Assembly (NCBI RefSeq): GCF_001306175.1
Contig: NZ_LGKN01000003.1
Location: forward strand, 620,001 to 684,000
Direction of reading: 5' to 3'
From: Ardenticatena maritima
GTDB taxonomy: Bacteria; Chloroflexota; Anaerolineae; Ardenticatenales; Ardenticatenaceae
Length of the DNA: 64,000 nt
Both the position numbers and the translations under genes were made by a program. Positions 12,788 to 37,188 of the stretch are shown here, piece after piece (position 1 is the first letter of the stretch; each line of letters begins with the position of its first letter). Below the pieces are notes generated by a model. It saw only the letters and a program-made list of their open reading frames with translations. It had not been told where the DNA came from and made no database searches.

Positions 12788-15394
12788 ATGTCTGCAACGC
12801 CCTCGCAGCATCTCCTCGCCCTCGCCGGTCTTCTGCACGACATTGGCAAGTTTGCTCTGCGTGCAGGTGTCAGCGGCAATCGCATGTGGGATGCAGAAGC
12901 CCGCCGTGAGTTTGGCTACAAACACGCCATGCTCAGCGCCTGGTTCGCTGAAACGTTTGTGCCCGAACCCTGGCGCAAAGCCGTCATCGGTCCCGTAGGC
13001 AATCACCACCGCCCCCAGACACGCGAAGACCGTATCGTCCAACTCGCCGACCATCTCTCGGCGGGGGAACGCGCGACGAACAGCGACGATGAATCGCGCA
13101 AGACGCATCCCATGCAACTGCGCTCTATCTTCACGCGCGTGCGTCTCGATGGAGAGGAGCACCCCAACCCCGAAGGCGCGTACTGGCCGCTTCAGCCGCT
13201 TGACCTCACCAGCGAATTCTTTCCCGCTGAACCGCTCCCCACATCCGAAGCAGAGCGGCGCTACGAAACCATGTGGGAAGAATTTGAGCGCGAAGCCGCC
13301 ACCCTGCGCGAGACTTTCGCCGAGGGGGGCTCGCTCGACGCCTACATCGAAAGCCTGCAAGCGCTCTTGATGCGCTACTTGTGGGCGGTTCCGTCAGCCT
13401 ACTACAAGAGCATTCCCGACATCAGCCTGTACGACCACAGCCGCATGACCGGCGCGCTTGCCGCCGTTCTGGCACATGCGGACGACGCCCGCATCAGAGA
13501 ATGGCTGAACGCGCCGGAGACGGTGGATGATGAAGCCGCCTTGCTTATTGGGGGGGACATCAGCGGCGTGCAGGATTTCATCTACACCATCACCGCCCGC
13601 GGCGCCACGCCCGGCTTGCGTGGGCGTTCGTTCTACTTGCAACTCCTGGGGGAAGCGCTGGCGCGCTTCATCCTGCGCGAACTGGATTTGCCCATCACCA
13701 ACATCATCTATGTTGGCGGCGGCAACTTCTACTTGCTGGCACGCCCCACCGACGCCGAACAGATTCCCCGCCTCCGTCAGGCAATCACCCGCACGCTTCT
13801 TCAACACCACCGCGGCGCGCTTGACGTGGCTGTGGAAGGCTATCCGCTTCGCGTGCGTGATTTCATCGCCGGTCCTCACCTCTCAGCCGCATGGGGGCAT
13901 CTGCACGAACGCTTGCAACGCGCCAAACGACGCCGCTTTGCCCACCTCAGCACAGCGGAAGTGGCGGACCTTTTCCAGCCACTGGGGCATGGCGGCAATG
14001 AAGAAACGGTCTGCGCCGTGTGCGGCGAGGAACATCCCAACGTCAAGAAAGACGGTTCCGGTGATTCAGCCGTCACAAAGTGCCCGGCGTGCCTGGCGTT
14101 TGAAGACCTGGGGGACAACCTGCGGCGCGCCGAAGTGCTCTTGCTGACGGTTCAGCCGGCAACCGACACGAGCCTCAATCTGGCTGAGCCGGCGGGCACG
14201 TGGAAGGACGTACTCGGTGCGTTTGGTCTGCAAGCCAGCGTGCTCGCGCGCCAGAACGGTGCGCTCTCCCTTCCCGCCCCCACAAACGAGACCTACCAGG
14301 TCGCGCTTGCGCTCAAAGACGCCACCCTGACCGACCTCACGCCCCACCCGCGCCGAGCCGTCGGGCGGCGTTTGCTGGTCAACACCACACCCATTCTCAC
14401 AGCCGCAGAGCGCCAGGCGTTGGAAGCCGATGCCTCGTTCCCGGACGACGAAAAGCGCGGTCTGCCGCCCGCCGACCGCGTCAAGCCGTTCAGCGTGTTG
14501 GCGCATCAGGCGCGCGGCATCAAGCGGTTGGGGGTCTTGCGGATGGACGTGGACAACCTGGGGACGCTCTTCCGCGAGGGGCTTGGCAATGCGGCAACGC
14601 TTTCACGCGTGGCGGGGTTGAGTTTCGCCGTCAGCCTCTACTTTGAAGGCTGGGTCGGGACGATTGCCGAGCGTATGCAGGCGCAGTTTGGCGACCGCCT
14701 CTACGCCATCTACTCCGGCGGCGATGACCTTTTCTTTGTGGGGGCGTGGGATGCGGTTGTGGAACTCGCCATCCGCGTGCGCGCCGACCTGACTGCCTAC
14801 ACGGGCGGCCACCCCGGCATTCACGCGAGCGGCGGCATGGTGCTGGTTCCCCGCAAATACCCACTCTACCAGGCGGCGGAAGAAGCCGGCGCCGCCGAAG
14901 AAGCCGCCAAGCGGCTGCGCTGGACGGACGGCACCCATCCGCGCCAGAAAAACGCCTTCTGTTTCCTGGGTGAAGCCTTGCCCTGGTCAACCTTTGGCAC
15001 CGACCCGCAATGCCAACCGGGCTTCCAGACGGTGCATCAACTCATGCACTTTCTCGAAGACGCTTTGCAAAAGGGTGCGCCCAAGTCGCTCGTGCGGCGG
15101 CTCATCGAATCGTACATGCTCTACATGGAAGCACGCCAGGCGTGGCAGCGTTCGCAAAGCACCACTGCACGCAACGGCTTGCCGCAAACGCTCTGGGGCC
15201 CCTGGACCTGGCGCATGGTGTACACCCTCAAGCGCATGGAAAAACACGTTTCAGGGGCAAATGTAGAACAACTACGTCGTACATTCCAGGCCGATTACAG
15301 CCTGACAAGCCGCATTGGTTTGGCGGCGCGTTGGGTTGATATATTGCGAGTTGAAAAACAAAACAACCAAGCCGAGGCAAAGGAGGTCTCATGA
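12788..15394 (+). CDS. cas10: Cas10/Csm1, type III-A large subunit (HD nuclease + cyclic-oligoadenylate synthase)
   Basis: 868 aa, starting after AAGGAG with 7-base spacing. It is the large subunit of the Csm interference complex. The N-terminal HD domain is intact (GLLHDIGKFALR, H17 D18), predicting single-stranded DNase activity. A zinc ribbon is formed by C409/C412 and C432/C435. The second Palm domain carries YSGGDDLFF, with the GGDD catalytic loop at 644-647 intact, predicting conversion of ATP to cyclic oligoadenylate when target RNA is bound. VLRMDVDNLGTLFREG precedes it as the first Palm beta strand. The C-terminal helical domain faces Csm2. Its stop overlaps the csm2 start (ATGA). 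Confidence 0.96.
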   Translation: MSATPSQHLLALAGLLHDIGKFALRAGVSGNRMWDAEARREFGYKHAMLSAWFAETFVPEPWRKAVIGPVGNHHRPQTREDRIVQLADHLSAGERATNSDDESRKTHPMQLRSIFTRVRLDGEEHPNPEGAYWPLQPLDLTSEFFPAEPLPTSEAERRYETMWEEFEREAATLRETFAEGGSLDAYIESLQALLMRYLWAVPSAYYKSIPDISLYDHSRMTGALAAVLAHADDARIREWLNAPETVDDEAALLIGGDISGVQDFIYTITARGATPGLRGRSFYLQLLGEALARFILRELDLPITNIIYVGGGNFYLLARPTDAEQIPRLRQAITRTLLQHHRGALDVAVEGYPLRVRDFIAGPHLSAAWGHLHERLQRAKRRRFAHLSTAEVADLFQPLGHGGNEETVCAVCGEEHPNVKKDGSGDSAVTKCPACLAFEDLGDNLRRAEVLLLTVQPATDTSLNLAEPAGTWKDVLGAFGLQASVLARQNGALSLPAPTNETYQVALALKDATLTDLTPHPRRAVGRRLLVNTTPILTAAERQALEADASFPDDEKRGLPPADRVKPFSVLAHQARGIKRLGVLRMDVDNLGTLFREGLGNAATLSRVAGLSFAVSLYFEGWVGTIAERMQAQFGDRLYAIYSGGDDLFFVGAWDAVVELAIRVRADLTAYTGGHPGIHASGGMVLVPRKYPLYQAAEEAGAAEEAAKRLRWTDGTHPRQKNAFCFLGEALPWSTFGTDPQCQPGFQTVHQLMHFLEDALQKGAPKSLVRRLIESYMLYMEARQAWQRSQSTTARNGLPQTLWGPWTWRMVYTLKRMEKHVSGANVEQLRRTFQADYSLTSRIGLAARWVDILRVEKQNNQAEAKEVS

Positions 15395-15831
15395 ACCGCC
15401 AACGGCAGTCCCCAAGCCCAAGTATCCCTATCGAAACCATCAAGACCATCATCACCGACCACTCTCAAACCGGCGCCAAAGCCCTGATTGAAGCGGCGGA
15501 GACGCTGGGCAAGGAACTGAGCCGTGCGCTTTCCACCAGCCAAATCCGCGCCATCTTTGGCGAGGTGCGCAGTATTCAGGCGACGTGGGAGAGCGGCAAC
15601 GCCCAACGCGAGCGCGCCCTCCGCCGCCTGATTCTGCTCAAGCCCAAAATGGCTTACCGCGCGCGCCGCGAACGCGGACAAGGTGTTGAACGGCTCCGCG
15701 AAGTGCTCGACGCCGCTATTGACCAGGTGCTGGCGGCATCTGATGAAGATGAAAAAAACAACCGCTTTCAGCGTTTTGTCGAATTCTTTGAAGCCATTCT
15801 CGCCTATCACAAAGCCTACGGTGGAAACTAA
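15391..15831 (+). CDS. csm2: Csm2, small subunit of the type III-A complex
   Basis: 146 aa. It begins in the ATGA overlap with cas10 behind a very strong AAAGGAGGTCTC. The sequence is almost wholly helical. It contains the family's recognisable STSQIRAIFGEVRSIQ segment (about residues 48-63) and LRRLILLKPKMAYRA, followed by a C-terminal helix pair (FQRFVEFFEAILAYHKAYGG). Csm2 lines the crRNA-target duplex as a helical filament beside Csm3. Its length fits the family. Its presence, with csm5, places the locus in subtype III-A and not III-B. Confidence 0.93.
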   Translation: MNRQRQSPSPSIPIETIKTIITDHSQTGAKALIEAAETLGKELSRALSTSQIRAIFGEVRSIQATWESGNAQRERALRRLILLKPKMAYRARRERGQGVERLREVLDAAIDQVLAASDEDEKNNRFQRFVEFFEAILAYHKAYGGN

Positions 15832-15849: not shown

Positions 15850-16653
15850 ATGAGTGACAAAATCATCCACTTGCGCGGTCGCCTCTTCATCACATTCGAC
15901 CTGGAAGCCGTAACGGGGTTGCACATTGGCGGCTCCGATAGCGGGATCGAAATTGGCGGCGTGGATAAAACCGTCATCCGCGACCCGCTGACCAATCGCC
16001 CTTACGTCCCCGGCAGTAGTCTGAAAGGCAAAATGCGCAGTCTGCTGGAAAAATACCACGCCAAACCCCAAAACCAACGTATTGGGCAGGGTTTCATTCA
16101 CTCGTGCCAGACCGACAAAGAATACGCGACATGCGACATCTGCCAGGTGTTCGGCGTGCCCGGCGAACGCAATTTTGGCACCCCCACCCGCCTGGTCGTC
16201 CGCGACGTGCACATGAGCGATCAGTCTGCTGAGGCGCTTGAAAAAGCCAACACCGACCTTCCCTACACCGAAGTCAAAACCGAAGTCTCGATTGACCGTG
16301 TTACATCAGCCGCCAACCCGCGCCAGATGGAGCGCGTCCCCGCCGGCACGGTCTTCAGCCCCGCTGAACTGGTTTACAGCATCTACGACGGGGCAGGATG
16401 CGACGCCCAAAAGGACGTGCAACGCCTGCGGGTGCTCGCCGAGGGATTGCAACTCCTGGAGGACGACTACCTGGGCGGGCAGGGAAGCCGCGGCGCAGGG
16501 AAAATCGCCATCCAAAACATCAAAGTCGCGTGGCGCGGCGGCGCCTCTTACATCGGCGAAGCAGAGATGCTCGGAGAATACGGCGACCTGGGAGCGTTTG
16601 TGCAAGACCTGGACAAGGTGATACAGACGATTTCCGCGAAGTTGAACGCCTGA
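15850..16653 (+). CDS. csm3: Csm3, RAMP backbone subunit and target-RNA nuclease
   Basis: 267 aa, with a strong AAAGGAGCATGCC ribosome site. A single RRM-type RAMP fold is recognisable from EAVTGLHIGGSDSGIEIGG and VPGSSLKGKMRSLLEKY (glycine-rich loop, about residues 55-71). D39 in IGGVDKTVIRD aligns, from my memory of the family, with the catalytic Asp of characterised Csm3 proteins (D33 in Streptococcus thermophilus). Target RNA cleavage at 6-nt intervals is therefore expected. CQTDKEYATCDICQVFG supplies the Cys/His zinc-binding lid. Several copies per complex form the crRNA-binding backbone. Confidence 0.95.
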   Translation: MSDKIIHLRGRLFITFDLEAVTGLHIGGSDSGIEIGGVDKTVIRDPLTNRPYVPGSSLKGKMRSLLEKYHAKPQNQRIGQGFIHSCQTDKEYATCDICQVFGVPGERNFGTPTRLVVRDVHMSDQSAEALEKANTDLPYTEVKTEVSIDRVTSAANPRQMERVPAGTVFSPAELVYSIYDGAGCDAQKDVQRLRVLAEGLQLLEDDYLGGQGSRGAGKIAIQNIKVAWRGGASYIGEAEMLGEYGDLGAFVQDLDKVIQTISAKLNA

Positions 16654-16680: not shown

Positions 16681-17853
16681 ATGCCGACCATTCACCCTTT
16701 CCACCTCGCTTTTTCCGGCGGGTTGCACCTGGGCGCGCGGGGGATCAACCTGGAAGAAAGCAGCGCCGCAGTGCCCGCCGATACGCTGTTCAGTGCGCTG
16801 GTGGCGACATGGCGGCTCATGGGCTACGACCCACCCGCGCTTGTGGCGCGCGCCCAACAATCGCCGCCTTTTCTGCTCACCTCTGCTTTTCCGCGCGTGG
16901 GCAACGTGCGCTTTTACCCGATGCCCGTTGACCCCGCGGTGCTGTTCACGCAGAGCGGGTGGCAGACGATCCGCCAGCGCGGCAAAGCCATCAAACGCTT
17001 GCGCTACCTTTCCGAAGGCTTGGTGCGCCGCTGGCTGATTGAGCAACAGCCGCTGGATGACGCGCTGTTCGATGAGCAGGGGAACGCCGCCCAAGGCGTT
17101 TCCTTGCAACACGATACGCTTTGGCTCAGCAAGGAAGAAGTCGAACAACTGCCGCCTGCGTTTCGCTTTCTGGATAAAGCACAGCGGCGCAAGCGCCCAC
17201 TGGAAGCCTTGCGCTATCTCCCCGTCTGGACGCACCACCGTATCCCGCGCGTGACGATTGACCGCATTCGCTCAGCCTCGAACATCTACCACGTCGGGGC
17301 GGTGCGGTTTGCCGAAGGGTGCGGGCTCTGGTTCGGTATCGTCTGGCAAAACGCCGACATGCCCGTTTCCGAAGCCGAGGATGGGCAAACCTTCCGTGAA
17401 CTGGTGCGCTCGGCGCTTGACCTTCTGCAAACCAACGGGCTGGGTGGCGAACGCAGTAGCGGATATGGGCAATTCACGCTCAGCGAAGCCCCACCCGTCA
17501 ACCTGCCGGACGCCAAGGAAGGCATGTGCGCCTGGCTGCTCAGCCGCTACCTGCCGCAAACATCCGAACTCGAAGCCAACGTCCTTGCCGACCGACAGAC
17601 CGCCTACGCCATCACCACCGTCCGCGGCTGGGTGCACACGTTCGACGCGCCCGACCAGCGCCGTAAAAGCCTGGTGATGATTCGCGAAGGCAGCCTCGTT
17701 CGCGCGACGGGGGCGGTGATGGGCGCGGTCGCCAACGTTCAGCCGACTTACGGCGCAAACGAGGGGACGCCCGGAATTCCGCACCCGGTTTATCGCTACG
17801 GCGTGGCTGTGGCGTTGGGCGTGCCACCACACAAGGAGGGTTCACATGGCTGA
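16681..17853 (+). CDS. csm4: Csm4, RAMP subunit that holds the crRNA 5' tag
   Basis: 390 aa, with AAAGGAGCCAACTCCT before the ATG. The N-terminal half has the Csm4 pattern FSGGLHLGARG ... VPADTLFSALVATWRLMG. Residues about 225-260 contain the glycine-rich RAMP loop LLQTNGLGGERSSGYGQFTL. Csm4 caps the 5' end of the backbone, contacts Cas10 and binds the 8-nt crRNA handle. It is somewhat longer than the usual 300 or so residues, the extra length lying in the middle and C-terminal region. It overlaps csm5 by 8 bases. Confidence 0.92.
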   Translation: MPTIHPFHLAFSGGLHLGARGINLEESSAAVPADTLFSALVATWRLMGYDPPALVARAQQSPPFLLTSAFPRVGNVRFYPMPVDPAVLFTQSGWQTIRQRGKAIKRLRYLSEGLVRRWLIEQQPLDDALFDEQGNAAQGVSLQHDTLWLSKEEVEQLPPAFRFLDKAQRRKRPLEALRYLPVWTHHRIPRVTIDRIRSASNIYHVGAVRFAEGCGLWFGIVWQNADMPVSEAEDGQTFRELVRSALDLLQTNGLGGERSSGYGQFTLSEAPPVNLPDAKEGMCAWLLSRYLPQTSELEANVLADRQTAYAITTVRGWVHTFDAPDQRRKSLVMIREGSLVRATGAVMGAVANVQPTYGANEGTPGIPHPVYRYGVAVALGVPPHKEGSHG

Positions 17854-18973
17854 GTATCTCATCTACGATGCACACGTGCGCCTGATTTCACCGCTTCACA
17901 TTGGCAGCGGCGTGACCCTCATGCGTGATTACGACTACGCCGTCCACAAAGGGCATTCGTGGCGGCTCAACCACGACGCCATTCTCGACGTGCAGGACGT
18001 CGAAGACCCCGACATCGTCGAAAAGTTGATGCGTGTGCCGCCCGCGCAATTGTTGCGCCCCGAGGATTACACGCCCGATAGCCCCTTCTTTCGCTACGTG
18101 ATGCGGGGCGTCCCTCGTTCGGAGCAGCGTGGTGCGGAACTGCGCGAGCAGTTGAAAGACCCCTTCGATCGCCCCTATTTGCCCGGCACCACCGTGAAAG
18201 GCGCCTTGCGCACCGCCCTGGGCTGGTACGCCTGGGGGCAAATGGGCATGCGCGCCAACGCCCGCGAGTTGGGCTTCAAGAAGCAGTGGGCGGGACAACC
18301 CTTTGAAAAACAGATTTTCGGCGCGTCCCCCAACCATGACTGGATGCGCGCCCTGCATATCAGCGACAGCGACCCGCTCGATGCGTCCACGCTCATGGTG
18401 GCGAATGTGCGTGTGCTGAACCGCGGCGGCGGACTGGCTGCCCCCATTGCTGTGGAAGCCTTGCGCCCACGCACGGAATGCTGGCTCACCATCAAGATTG
18501 ACCTGGCGCTTTTCGACGACTGGGCGCACCGTGCAAAACTCCGCGCCAGCGCGCGCCAATGGCTCACCAACCTGCCGGACATCGTCAATCAGCACGCCCT
18601 CGACCATATCAAGCGCGAAGTGCAATGGTTCAAGAACATTCGCGGCGGCGACCATGTCGCGCAGTTTTATGAACGCCTGGCGCAGCAGGTCGCCAAAGTG
18701 CAGGGTTCCAACCGTTTTGTCGTGGCGCTGGGGTGGGGCACTGGTTGGGAAACCAAAACGTTCGGCTCGCGCCTGGCGCGCGATGAACGCTTTATGGAGC
18801 AGATCATCAGCAAATACAGGCTTGCCCGTGGCAAGCGCCAGCATGGCGACCCCTTCCCCAAAAGCCGCCGGGTGGCGGTGCACATTGACCGCGACCCCTC
18901 GGGGCGTGTACACGAAGAAGCCCGCGCACCGCTAGGGTGGTGTGTGGTGACACTCTTGCCCAAAGAAGACTGA
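17846..18973 (+). CDS. csm5: Csm5, RAMP subunit at the 3' end of the crRNA
   Basis: 375 aa, starting inside the csm4 tail behind AAGGAGGGTTCAC. Typical Csm5 features are ISPLHIGSGVTLMRDYDY at the N terminus, AILDVQDVEDPDIVEKL, and the RAMP glycine loop YLPGTTVKGALRTALGW (about residues 110-127). ALGWGTGWETKTFG near the C terminus is a further conserved glycine-rich segment. Csm5 caps the backbone and recruits housekeeping nucleases for crRNA trimming in studied systems. Tight coupling to csm4 supports joint assembly. Confidence 0.92.
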   Translation: MAEYLIYDAHVRLISPLHIGSGVTLMRDYDYAVHKGHSWRLNHDAILDVQDVEDPDIVEKLMRVPPAQLLRPEDYTPDSPFFRYVMRGVPRSEQRGAELREQLKDPFDRPYLPGTTVKGALRTALGWYAWGQMGMRANARELGFKKQWAGQPFEKQIFGASPNHDWMRALHISDSDPLDASTLMVANVRVLNRGGGLAAPIAVEALRPRTECWLTIKIDLALFDDWAHRAKLRASARQWLTNLPDIVNQHALDHIKREVQWFKNIRGGDHVAQFYERLAQQVAKVQGSNRFVVALGWGTGWETKTFGSRLARDERFMEQIISKYRLARGKRQHGDPFPKSRRVAVHIDRDPSGRVHEEARAPLGWCVVTLLPKED

Positions 18974-19000
18974 ACCAATGCAATGCAAGGAGAGAAGCCT

Positions 19001-20242
19001 ATGCCGCGTGTGTTGGTCTGTACGGTTGGCGGCTCATGCCAGCCCATTGTCGCCGCCATTCGCGACTATATGCCCGACTTTGTCTATTTCATCGCCTCGG
19101 CGCAGAGCCGTGCCACCGTGGACGGCGAGGGGCGCCCTTGCAGGCAATACAACGGCGAGGATTTGCCCGCTATCGTCAAGCAGGCAGGGCTCTCGCCGGA
19201 GCAGTACGCAATCCTTGAACTCACCGACCCCGATTCGCTCAGTACATGCTATGCTGAAATGAGCCAGGCGCTCGCCGATGTGGCGACCCGTTTCCCGGAC
19301 GCGGAGCATATTGTGGATTACACCGGCGGCACCAAAACCATGTCCGTTTCGCTGGTGTTGGCGGCGCTCGACGGCAATTGGAAGGTTTCGCTTGTCAAGG
19401 GCGCACGTACCGACCTGGTGCGCGTGGCTGACGGTACCGAAATCGCCGGGCTGGTGAACATCGGCGAAGTGCGCGCCCGCCGCCGCTTGCAAGAGGTGCG
19501 TGCGCTCTTCAACACCTACGAGTACCGCGCCGCCGAAAATCTCATTCGGGCGTTGTTGCAAAGCGCCCCGCTCTCTGTGCCTCTGCAACAACTCCTGCGC
19601 GACTGGATTGCCTTGTGCCGCGGTTTCGACGCGTGGGACCGCTTCGACCATGCCCGCGCGGAAGAACTGTTGCGCCCCCACGCCAAAACGCTGGGTCCTG
19701 TCTGGCGCTTTTTGCTGGCGTTGCAGGGCAAGGGCAAGCATTCGGAGTATGAACCGGTCTTCGACCTGCTGCGCAACGCGGAACGCCGCGCCGAGAGTGG
19801 GCGCTACGATGACGCCGTGGCGCGGCTCTACCGTGCGGTGGAAATGCTGGCGCAAATTCGCCTGCGCCGCGAATATGGGCAGGAAACGGGCGATATTGAC
19901 GTGGCGCGCTTGCCTGAGACTCTGCGCGCCAAATACGAGGCGCTGCGTGATGAGGACGGCAAGGTGCGCCTGGCGCTCATGCGGGCGTATGACCTTCTGC
20001 ACGATTTGGACGACCCGCTTGGGCGGGCGTTCGCCCAGCAGAAGAAGGAAATTTTGAACGCGCTCAAACGTCGCAATGCCTCTATTCTGGCGCACGGCAC
20101 CGAACCGCTTTCCGAAAGAAAATGGCGTAAGGTGCGCGAAGTGTTGCAGGGTTTCATTGAAGAGACCTGCGAGGCGATGAAAGTGCATGTTGACGCGCCC
20201 CAATTCCCGCACTTGAATGAGCAAAACGAACTCGACATCTAA
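19001..20242 (+). CDS. CARF-HEPN ribonuclease of the TIGR02710/Csm6-like family
   Basis: 413 aa. The ATG at 19001 follows AAGGAGAGAAGCCT; an earlier in-frame ATG at 18983 lies upstream of that site. The N-terminal CARF domain starts with PRVLVCTVGGSCQPI and contains HIVDYTGGTKTMSVSL (D106-T111), the ligand-loop signature of the TIGR02710 (Cas02710) group. The C-terminal half is helical and ends with RNASILAHG (R358 ... H365), an RxxxxxxH HEPN ribonuclease motif. Cyclic oligoadenylate from Cas10 should bind the CARF dimer and switch on RNA cleavage. The ring size of the activator cannot be read from sequence. It sits between csm5 and cas6 in the same operon and is the only visible accessory effector. 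Confidence 0.9.
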   Translation: MPRVLVCTVGGSCQPIVAAIRDYMPDFVYFIASAQSRATVDGEGRPCRQYNGEDLPAIVKQAGLSPEQYAILELTDPDSLSTCYAEMSQALADVATRFPDAEHIVDYTGGTKTMSVSLVLAALDGNWKVSLVKGARTDLVRVADGTEIAGLVNIGEVRARRRLQEVRALFNTYEYRAAENLIRALLQSAPLSVPLQQLLRDWIALCRGFDAWDRFDHARAEELLRPHAKTLGPVWRFLLALQGKGKHSEYEPVFDLLRNAERRAESGRYDDAVARLYRAVEMLAQIRLRREYGQETGDIDVARLPETLRAKYEALRDEDGKVRLALMRAYDLLHDLDDPLGRAFAQQKKEILNALKRRNASILAHGTEPLSERKWRKVREVLQGFIEETCEAMKVHVDAPQFPHLNEQNELDI

Positions 20243-20255
20243 AGAGGGGAAGCGC

Positions 20256-21070
20256 ATGCCGATTGCCATTACGCTCATGCTGGAAAGTGAAACCGAAGCA
20301 GTGCTCCCCCGCGACCTGGGGCGTGCCAATTACGCCCGGCGCTGCGCGCCATTGCGCGTATTGATGAGAATCTGGCGGCGCAGATTCACGACGGCGACGG
20401 TCCCAAGCCGATTACCTGCTCGCTCTTGTGGGGCGCACGCCGCACGCGCGAAGGAATGCCGGTGCGCCCCGGCGAAACCTATTTCGTGCGCATCACCGGG
20501 CTGACACCCGAGGTTGAAGAAGCGCTCGACCTTGCCCTGCTGCACAACCCGCCCAAAACGTGGGAACTCGACCGCCACACGTTCCGCGTTGTGCGCACCA
20601 CAGACACCCCCGAAGAAGACCCGACGGGCTGGGCGGGGCGTCAGTCATACGCGGAAATGGTGCAAACGTATCTGCAAGGGCGCTCGGCGTTGCGCAAACG
20701 CATCACGCTAGAATTTGCCAGCCCGACCGCGTTTCGCTCGCAGGAAAAGCAGATTACCTTGCCCCTGCCCGGTCTGGTGTTCGGCAGTCTGGTGGAGCGG
20801 TGGAATGCGTTTGCGCCGATCGCGCTGAGCGCCGACATGCGCCGCTTCGCCGAAGAATGTATCGCCGTGAGTCGCTACCGCTTGCAAAGCCGCCCGGTGG
20901 ACCAGAAGAACAAGGCGCTGCGTATCGGCGCTATTGGAGAAGCGACCTACATTGCCCTGCGTTACGACGTGTATTGGGTGAGCGTCTTCAATCTGCTGGC
21001 GGATTTCGCCCGTTTCGGGGGCGTTGGTGTACAGACGACAACCGGCATGGGGCAGGTTCGTACGCGCTGA
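20256..21070 (+). pseudogene. cas6: cas6 crRNA endoribonuclease, interrupted by a frameshift
   Basis: The ATG at 20256 (after AAAGAGGGGAAGCGC) opens a normal Cas6 N terminus, MPIAITLMLESETEAVLPRD, then LGRANYA. Near 20336-20342 the reading must move to another frame to continue as LRAIARIDENLAAQIHDGDG and then PKPITCSLLWG. From there it runs intact to a typical Cas6 C terminus: SPTAFRSQEK, LPLPGLVFGSLVERWN, FARFGGVGVQTTTGMGQVR. Staying in the first frame reaches a stop at about 20504. One lost base or two gained bases would explain it. No other Cas6 is visible in the window. It could be a real inactivating mutation, a sequencing error, or (less likely) recoding. The downstream frame has no good start of its own. 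Confidence 0.85.
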
Positions 21071-21082
21071 GCATCTACCGCC

Positions 21083-22099
21083 ATGAAACACCCGCTCTAC
21101 TTGCTCGAACAAGGCACACGCTTGAAGCGTGAGGGGCGCCGCCTGCTGGTTGTGCGCGATGATGAGGTGCTCGCCCGCGTCTCGGTTTTGCAGGTGAGCC
21201 AGGTTATTGTGTTCGGCAATGTGGATATCACCACACCGGCGCTCAAATTGCTGCTGGATGAAGGGATCGAGGTTGTATTGCTGAGCCGGCGCGGGCGCTT
21301 CTATGGTCGCCTGGTGGGGGCGGAAAGCGGCAACGGTTTGTTGCGCGTAGCGCAGGTCACGCGGAGCCGCGATGAACGCTTTGCGCTGGAAGTGGCGCGG
21401 CGGCTGGTGCAAGCCAAAATTCACCACATGCGGCGGCTCTTGCAACGCCACGGCTATCGTCGCCCGGCGATTCAAGCGGAGATTCAGAACGCCGTACAGG
21501 CGTTGGGGCAAGCGCACGAGCAGGCGGCGCGCTGTCGCACGCTCAACAGCCTGCTGGGCGTGGAAGGAAGCGCCACCGGGCATTATTTTCGCGCCTTTCG
21601 CTTGCTCTTGAACGAGGGGTGGGTTTTTGAAGGGCGACGCCGACGCCCGCCCACCGACCCCGTGAATGTGTTGCTCAGTTTTGGCTACACCATTCTCCAG
21701 CAGAACGTTCTGGGGGCGGTGCTCACCGCCGGGCTGGACCCCTACGTCGGGTTTTTGCATCAAATGGCGTATAACCGCCCCAGCCTGGCGCTCGATCTCA
21801 TGGAGCCGTTTCGCCCGCTGGTTGTGGATTCGGTAGTTCTGCGTTGCATCAACAACGAGGTGGTACGGCTGGACGACTTCACCACGAGTGACGACCCCGT
21901 CCGTCCGGTTGTACTGGGAGATGAGGGCAAGCGGCGCTACATTCGGGAACTGGAACACCGCTTGACGCAAGCGTTCAAGCATCCCGGAACCGGCGAGCAG
22001 GTGACGTATCGGCGGCTTTTTCTGCTCGAAGCCTACGCACTGGCGCGTGTCTTGACGGATGAAGATGAAAACGCCATGTTTCAGCCGTTTCGCGTCTAG
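21083..22099 (+). CDS. cas1: Cas1, CRISPR integrase
   Basis: 338 aa, standalone, with no reverse transcriptase or other fusion. The N-terminal beta domain ([19 protein letters not shown] ... [20 protein letters not shown]) is followed by the helical catalytic domain. The metal ligands are in place: E161 ([13 protein letters not shown]), H226 (DPYVGFLHQ), D238 and E241 ([14 protein letters not shown]). With Cas2 it inserts new spacers next to the leader. It starts 12 bases after the cas6 stop with only a weak ribosome site, consistent with coupling in the operon. Confidence 0.96.
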
Positions 22100-22114: not shown

Positions 22115-22393
22115 ATGTTTGTTGTTGTCAGTTACGACATCCCGGACGACCGGCGGCGGCTCAAAATTGCGCAAACCTTGTTGGATTATGGGGGCGAGCG
22201 CGTGCAATACTCGGTCTTTGAAATGCACATCACCGCCCGCCATTTGGAGCGCCTGCAACGCGAACTCTCCGCCATCATTGACCCCGGCGAGGATAGCGTG
22301 CGGTTCTATCGGCTGTGCGGCGCTTGCCAGGGCACAATTCTCTACCTGGGCGTCGCCCGCCCCACAGACGGACCGGGGCTTTTGATTATTTAG
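22115..22393 (+). CDS. cas2: Cas2, structural partner of Cas1
   Basis: 92 aa, with GGAGCAAGACC before the ATG. It shows the ferredoxin-like fold signature [20 protein letters not shown], with D8 at the end of the first strand, then [18 protein letters not shown] and DSVRFYRLC. The length is normal. It is the last protein gene of the cas operon; the leader begins immediately downstream. Confidence 0.95.
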
Positions 22394-22416
22394 CAACGCA
22401 ATTAGCCAGGCAAATA

Positions 22417-22500
22417 GTTGAACGCGACCAAATTCTGTCAGACCCCCCTGAAACGGGGCGATTTTTGGGGCGATTTTGAGGGGGTCTGAAAACGTTCAAC
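22417..22500 (+). repeat. Nested inverted repeat in the CRISPR leader
   Basis: The outer arms GTTGAACG (22417-22424) and CGTTCAAC (22493-22500) are perfect complements. Inside them lie TCAGACCCCC (22438-22447) and GGGGGTCTGA (22480-22489), again perfect. Between the inner arms GGGGCGATTTT occurs twice in tandem. The right arm contains GTCTGAAAA, the first nine bases of the CRISPR repeat. The element lies just after cas2 and upstream of the array promoter. It could be a terminator-like or protein-binding structure, or an old repeat remnant. Confidence 0.7.
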
Positions 22501-22540
22501 TTCCTGGAAAAAGGAGCGGTATTTGGCATGGTTTTGGGGG

Positions 22541-22569
22541 TTGACAAACGCGCCATTTTCTTGTATGCT
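22541..22569 (+). promoter_or_regulatory. Sigma70-type promoter of the CRISPR array
   Basis: A consensus TTGACA (22541-22546) and TATGCT (22564-22569) are separated by exactly 17 bases. Transcription would start near 22576, about 45 bases before the first repeat. This gives the array its own promoter, independent of the cas operon. Confidence 0.75.
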
Positions 22570-22620
22570 GTGCCACAGATGAAGCGGATGAGCGGGCGAC
22601 GCCCATAGCACATCCGTACA

Positions 22621-23487
22621 GTCTGAAAAGCCCTAATCCCCGCAAGGGGATTGAAACGGACGTAAACTTTGATTCCACCCTCCTCGACGGCTTTCATGGT
22701 CTGAAAAGCCCTAATCCCCGCAAGGGGATTGAAACAGAGCACAATTACGCAATGTGTGCTTGCGGGCGATACGTCTGAAAAGCCCTAATCCCCGCAAGGG
22801 GATTGAAACTCTTGCATCTCTTTTACCATACTCACAACGTCCGAACGTCTGAAAAGCCCTAATCCCCGCAAGGGGATTGAAACAAAGCACGGGATAACTC
22901 CGCCAATCACAGCACACATAGAGTCTGAAAAGCCCTAATCCCCGCAAGGGGATTGAAACGGCAATGTATAATGCTTATGGCTGGCAACGCCGCAACGTCT
23001 GAAAAGCCCTAATCCCCGCAAGGGGATTGAAACTCTATTGTTTTCTATAATCCCCCGACTAAGACTATATAAAGTCTGAAAAGCCCTAATCCCCGCAAGG
23101 GGATTGAAACATATTTTCTGAATCTGAATTCATTTCACTTGTGATGTCGTCTGAAAAGCCCTAATCCCCGCAAGGGGATTGAAACGTCAAGGAACTTTTC
23201 CCAATTAGTGGCGACTTCTTCATGTCTGAAAAGCCCTAATCCCCGCAAGGGGATTGAAACACTTTGGCCCGCGCTGGTATCGTGCGGATGGAAGCATCGT
23301 CTGAAAAGCCCTAATCCCCGCAAGGGGATTGAAACTAATACTTATTAGAGACCTTCCAACCCGCTTCTTCATAGGTCTGAAAAGCCCTAATCCCCGCAAG
23401 GGGATTGAAACCAAATCACCTCGTGAAGTTCACCTTCGTGTGTTTCCACCGTCTGAAAAGCCCTAATCCCCGCAAGGGGATTGACGC
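22621..23487 (+). CRISPR. CRISPR array, 12 repeats of 37 bp, 11 spacers
   Basis: Repeats begin at 22621, 22699, 22773, 22847, 22923, 22997, 23074, 23149, 23224, 23299, 23375 and 23451. The first eleven are identical. The last is altered at two positions in its final three bases (ends TTGACGC in place of TTGAAAC), marking the leader-distal end. Spacers are 37-41 bp. The repeat starts GTCTGAAAAG and holds the palindrome AATCCCCGCAAGGGGATT (7-bp stem, GCAA loop). Cleavage at the stem base would leave the 8-nt tag ATTGAAAC, standard for type III. The array is transcribed rightwards from the leader promoter. Confidence 0.98.
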
Positions 23488-36934: not shown

Positions 36935-37011
36935 ATGCAGGTATCTCCAACCATCCTGCTATGCTGGTTGCAAAGGCAACCAACACAACAGGCACGCGGT
37001 TGCTGCCTGGC

Positions 37012-37157
37012 TCCACCTTCTCCCATCCGGACTATACCGTCGGCTCCGGCCTCTCACCGGATCCACCGCTTGCGCGGGTCGCGGGCTCGTTCGGTCATCG
37101 CCGAACATACCGCCGGTCGGGAATTGCCACGCACATCACGGTGCGGGCTCACCCTGC
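37012..37157 (-). promoter_or_regulatory. FMN riboswitch (RFN element)
   Basis: Read on the minus strand, the conserved blocks come in order: AGGGTGAGCC, ATTCCCGACCGGCGGT, GAGCCCGCGA, GTGGATCCGGTGAGAGGCCG, GAGCCGACGGTATAGTC, CGGATGGGAGAAGG. These match the RFN consensus nearly base for base, including both variable hairpins. FMN binding should favour the downstream terminators and shut off ribX/ribY when flavin is plentiful. Confidence 0.96.
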
Positions 37158-37188
37158 CCCGAAGGTGCCATATTCAGTTGGTGTCTTG

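Follow-up and report, generated by a model that had tools for sequence, protein, structure and literature searches.

In Sulfolobus solfataricus, type I-A, III-A and III-B complexes share one genome with five Cas6 paralogues and two repeat families, and assays of the paralogues identified one as repeat-specific and another as broader in its activity (PMC4041471). In Marinomonas, deletion experiments established that a type III-B system depends on Cas6f, and each processing machinery was found to be specific to its own repeats (PMC5576922). Precedents for the use of a substitute Cas6 hence point both ways, with the broader paralogue of S. solfataricus on one side and the repeat-specific machineries of Marinomonas on the other. 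Cas6-independent maturation has also been described, by PNPase for Listeria RliB (PMC3886909) and, according to statements citing that work in two further papers, by RNase E for the guides of the Synechocystis III-Bv system (PMC6447361, PMC8616872); either route would permit guides to be made without a local Cas6. The genome of Ardenticatena maritima analyzed here, which comprises 12 contigs and 3.56 Mb, is like that of S. solfataricus in combining several Cas6 paralogues and repeat families with I-A, III-A and III-B modules. It is unlike it in having a type I-B system as well and in that the apparent cognate Cas6 for one of the repeat families is broken, and it is unlike Synechocystis in that no match to the RNase E/G family, a potential alternative processor, was found in the genome. 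The broken gene belongs to a type III-A locus located in a stretch of 64,000 nucleotides, referred to here as the window, where the rest of the locus is organized as follows:

12788 to 15394, plus strand: cas10/csm1 (TIGR02578)
15391 to 15831, plus strand: csm2 (TIGR01870)
15850 to 16653, plus strand: csm3 (TIGR02582)
16681 to 17853, plus strand: csm4 (TIGR01903)
17846 to 18973, plus strand: csm5 (TIGR01899)
18983 to 20242, plus strand: CARF-HEPN effector, Csx1/Csm6-like (TIGR02710)
21083 to 22099, plus strand: cas1 (TIGR00287)
22115 to 22393, plus strand: cas2 (TIGR01573)
22405 to 22620, plus strand: leader of about 216 bp, near-identical in other arrays with the same repeat
22621 to 23487, plus strand: CRISPR array in which a 37-nt hairpin repeat occurs 12 times, the final copy being degenerate

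The family models for Csm1 to Csm5, the CARF-HEPN effector, Cas1 and Cas2 are matched almost end to end. The assignment to type III-A follows from the near full-length Csm1 to Csm5 and from the presence of cas1, cas2, leader and array beside the effector genes. The 37-nt repeat forms an 8-bp hairpin of -12.5 kcal/mol, a stability attained by 1 of 200 shuffled sequences. Elsewhere in the window, an FMN riboswitch was identified on the minus strand at 37011-37170 (RF00050, 95.5 bits).

Between the effector gene and cas1 lies cas6, which is distributed over two reading frames:

20256 to 20341, plus strand: upstream cas6 piece in frame 0, covering by homology the N-terminal domain's first strand and first helix
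20336 to 20342, plus strand: junction of the frame change (-1 / +2), located by codon scan and comparison with relatives
20342 to 21070, plus strand: downstream cas6 piece in the other frame, 242 codons plus stop (TIGR01877, PF10040)
20387 to 20389, plus strand: codon of a histidine that all 17 relatives share and that is presumed catalytic, located in the alignment of relatives
20426 to 21070, plus strand: longest ATG/GTG/TTG-initiated open reading frame (ORF) of the downstream frame, 214 aa, beginning past the conserved histidine

Read in frame 0 from the ATG at 20256, the gene begins with MPIAITLMLESETEAVLPRDLGRANYA and provides about 28 codons of Cas6 sequence, after which resemblance to the family ceases. 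From 20342 onwards, the -1 (+2) frame provides 242 clean Cas6 residues, uninterrupted by any further stop or frame break, up to the stop codon at 21068-21070. This downstream piece scores above the curated thresholds of TIGR01877 (61.4 bits; cut-off 58.65) and PF10040 (66.2 bits; cut-off 25) and keeps the conserved histidine codon; the window gene differs from these Cas6 families in that its first strand and the beginning of its first helix are encoded in a different frame, and no single reading frame includes the N-terminal strand. The closest solved structures are those of Thermus Cas6A (4c8y) and Cas6B (4c98), and the 242 downstream residues align end to end from residue 34 of Cas6B. The upstream piece had no match in Pfam and, since it is too short for profile libraries, it was scored with a hidden Markov model (HMM) built on the N-termini of the 17 relatives. 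It obtained 18.0 bits in this model, where the top score of 5000 shuffles was 9.6 bits, and the latter value was exceeded by 2 of 4706 window peptides, both of which overlap the stretch encoding the upstream piece. A codon-usage model blind to Cas6 placed the switch of frame between 20336 and 20341. In the alignment, cas6 occupies a single frame in all 17 relatives and is split in none of them, the two pieces abut within two codons of a conserved LGRAxxA..L stretch, and the window gene is one base short at the junction with respect to the spacing of the relatives. The original prediction of two conserved Cas6 pieces in different frames, meeting at 20336-20342 in a III-A locus with otherwise intact cas genes, leader and array, is thus borne out by profile matches, codon scan and relatives, on the one hand, and by the near end-to-end models and the whole appearance of leader and array, on the other.

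Ribosomes initiating at the normal start would leave the Cas6 sequence behind some 28 codons later and read on, through sequence unrelated to it, as far as the stop at 20504. The downstream frame has its last preceding stop at 20288, is open from 20291 and offers its first ATG, GTG or TTG with the TTG at 20426. This start lies 3' of the conserved histidine codon, so the histidine, which we take to be catalytic from general knowledge of the Cas6 family, falls outside any translatable product: a restart at an ATG, GTG or TTG would begin past it, and the product initiated at 20426 would be devoid of both the first strand and the histidine. Since the downstream frame offers no ATG, GTG or TTG 5' of the conserved histidine, no working Cas6 is expected from ordinary translation.

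The reading that we regard as probable is that the III-A cas6 carries a genuine and recent frame break at a single position, abolishing a working Cas6. We infer that the break is present in the living strain, in which case the gene is most likely a pseudogene of recent and ordinary origin, one of several cas6 genes in the genome, which is a known kind of occurrence and does not constitute a new kind of system. The main alternative, to which we assign an appreciable but clearly smaller chance, is a sequencing or assembly error, implying that cas6 is intact in the organism and that the III-A system is normal. A one-base assembly mistake would look the same as a real lesion, and the difference does involve a single position in an otherwise perfect gene, unbroken in every relative (17/17), within an operon that is intact and whose leader and arrays are conserved. 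The undamaged state of the 242 downstream codons fits a very recent lesion and, equally, an intact gene that has been misread. Against an error, Illumina sequencing produces few indel errors outside long homopolymers, and the junction is not within one. A published assembly of A. maritima 110S, obtained from Illumina MiSeq reads with SPAdes, has the same number of contigs and a reported size of 3.62 Mb (PMC4653789), and despite the slight difference in size it appears to be this genome; a second assembly of strain 110S exists (BBZA00000000; PMC4591325). A search of genome- and viral-contig collections, which may omit this genome or those near it, returned no intact cas6 from the same strain and no near-identical one. 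Also against an error, 267 kb of the genome were scanned by codon usage for frame changes occurring without stop and start, and the III-A cas6 was the sole convincing frame break. The assembly therefore does not seem to be rich in indels, even if one error could still be present. Among the other candidates flagged by the scan, one at about 47.8 kb of the window falls within one ORF of 327 aa that contains a proline/threonine repeat tract, the L026 and L027 candidates are likewise each within a single long ORF, and one in L035 was flagged close to the end of its own stretch.

If the frame break is real, its stakes are wider than originally stated, because the window repeat is carried by five arrays and not by one. 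These are located on four contigs (C1, C3, C5 and C10, with two arrays on C3), and wherever their leaders are readable these are near-identical across about 210 bp; the leader on C1 is cut off by the end of its contig. The arrays at the end of C1 (L028) and the start of C10 (L029) have the same trailer (GCAGGAGAAGATGACCGGGG...), and C1 ends within the leader; these two arrays may represent a duplication at which the assembly broke. Two adjacent spacers of the C10 array (L029, around 1293-1443) are identical, which is likely to reflect a duplication within the array. The pairing of Cas6 families with repeats was judged in relatives. Those that carry a window-type cas6 and an array on one contig (seven example genomes) have repeats with a hairpin followed by a terminal (A/G)(T/C)TGAAAC, and relatives of the Cas6 of a type I-A locus also present in the genome (eight example genomes) adjoin repeats ending in GGATACTGAAAG or a sequence near it. 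Both families occur in G004 and G029, each paired with its own repeat. Since family and repeat type pair up in this manner, the broken cas6 probably encodes the cognate enzyme of all five arrays. It would then be the cognate processor for their hairpin repeat, and perhaps also for guides borrowed by a type III-B module.

The original prediction had described the broken gene as the only cas6, which is accurate for the III-A locus; in the genome, three further intact cas6 genes were found. The first, in an open frame at C3:901 kb, belongs to a separate and complete type I-B system, whose 30-nt, weakly folding repeat is unlike that of the window and is found at C3:901 kb and C5:383-387 kb. The second is part of the type I-A locus at C5:82-92 kb (L024 2571-11907), which encodes cas3, cas8a, cas7, cas5a, cas6, cas1, cas2 and cas4 and has no array within 20 kb; a search of the genome allowing up to 3 mismatches found no repeat of the corresponding type. 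The third is an orphan paralogue at C5:220 kb (L026 13079-14188), of 369 aa and 47% identical to the I-A Cas6, which has no other recognizable cas genes in its neighborhood and one of the five window-repeat arrays at a distance of about 23 kb. The original caution that the sequence might be in error or that another cas6 might reside elsewhere in the genome was apt, but none of the three is of the window-type family, all other matches to which were at chance level. The type III-B module at C4:580115-588207 (L170 15115-19317, L171 184-3207) encodes Cmr1, Cmr2, Cmr3, Cmr5, Cmr6, Csx15 and a putative ring-nuclease-like protein. Neither cas6 nor cas1 nor an array was seen near it, and because it has no cas6 or array at hand the module presumably has to rely on guides made at other loci of the genome. 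In this it is like the Marinomonas III-B module, which coexists with other CRISPR systems, and unlike it in that guide borrowing is deduced here from gene content. The Cmr6 protein (L171 552-1637) appears to have a cold-shock-like C-terminal domain, with weak matches at residues 306-356. The block of crRNA maturation that was originally proposed remains plausible, given the pairing of family and repeat and the lack of a second cas6 of the same family in the genome; with three further intact cas6 genes present, such a block is not established.

If the frame break is real, the genome probably tolerates it by virtue of its other Cas6 enzymes and the separate, complete type I-B system. The window repeat and the I-B repeat both end in GGGATTGAAAC and so have their last 11 bases in common across the presumed cut site before ATTGAAAC, tags of this kind being common in I-B and III-A repeats. 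The shared bases, weak evidence though they are, make the I-B Cas6 the most plausible substitute and a putative backup for the five arrays. If the arrays are still processed, this enzyme would be the likeliest to do so, and otherwise their guides would stay immature. That a non-cognate Cas6 (I-B, I-A or orphan) has indeed taken over the five arrays, with a single Cas6 then supplying both type III effectors as well as type I, we consider unlikely. It is more doubtful still that the loss is neutral by virtue of the I-A Cas6 or the orphan paralogue serving the five arrays, with the array-less I-A locus and these arrays forming one system. Such an arrangement would be in keeping with the intact cas6 of a locus with neither a nearby array nor a matching repeat type in the genome, and with the proximity of the orphan paralogue to one of the arrays. 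The I-A Cas6 family, however, pairs in relatives with GGATACTGAAAG-ending or close repeats and not with the window type, the two families keep separate repeats in G004 and G029, and an I-A array could sit in unassembled sequence. Programmed recoding, with a ribosome or RNA polymerase slipping at the junction to yield some full-length Cas6, has room to operate where the two frames are both open (20291 to 20504) but is highly improbable, given that no slippery heptamer, in agreement with the original prediction, and no long homopolymer was seen by eye at 20291-20342, that all 17 relatives have a single frame and so neither need recoding nor preserve the split, and that a slip at an upstream run of five C would swap out the conserved LGRA stretch.

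Should the frame break turn out to be an assembly error, the finding would merely correct an annotation. If it is real, as we consider probable, the strain amounts to a natural knock-out in which one of four Cas6 enzymes is lost against a background of type I-A, I-B, III-A and III-B modules, and it would allow a test of whether the guides of a hairpin repeat can be matured by a non-cognate Cas6 or a general RNase once the cognate enzyme is missing.
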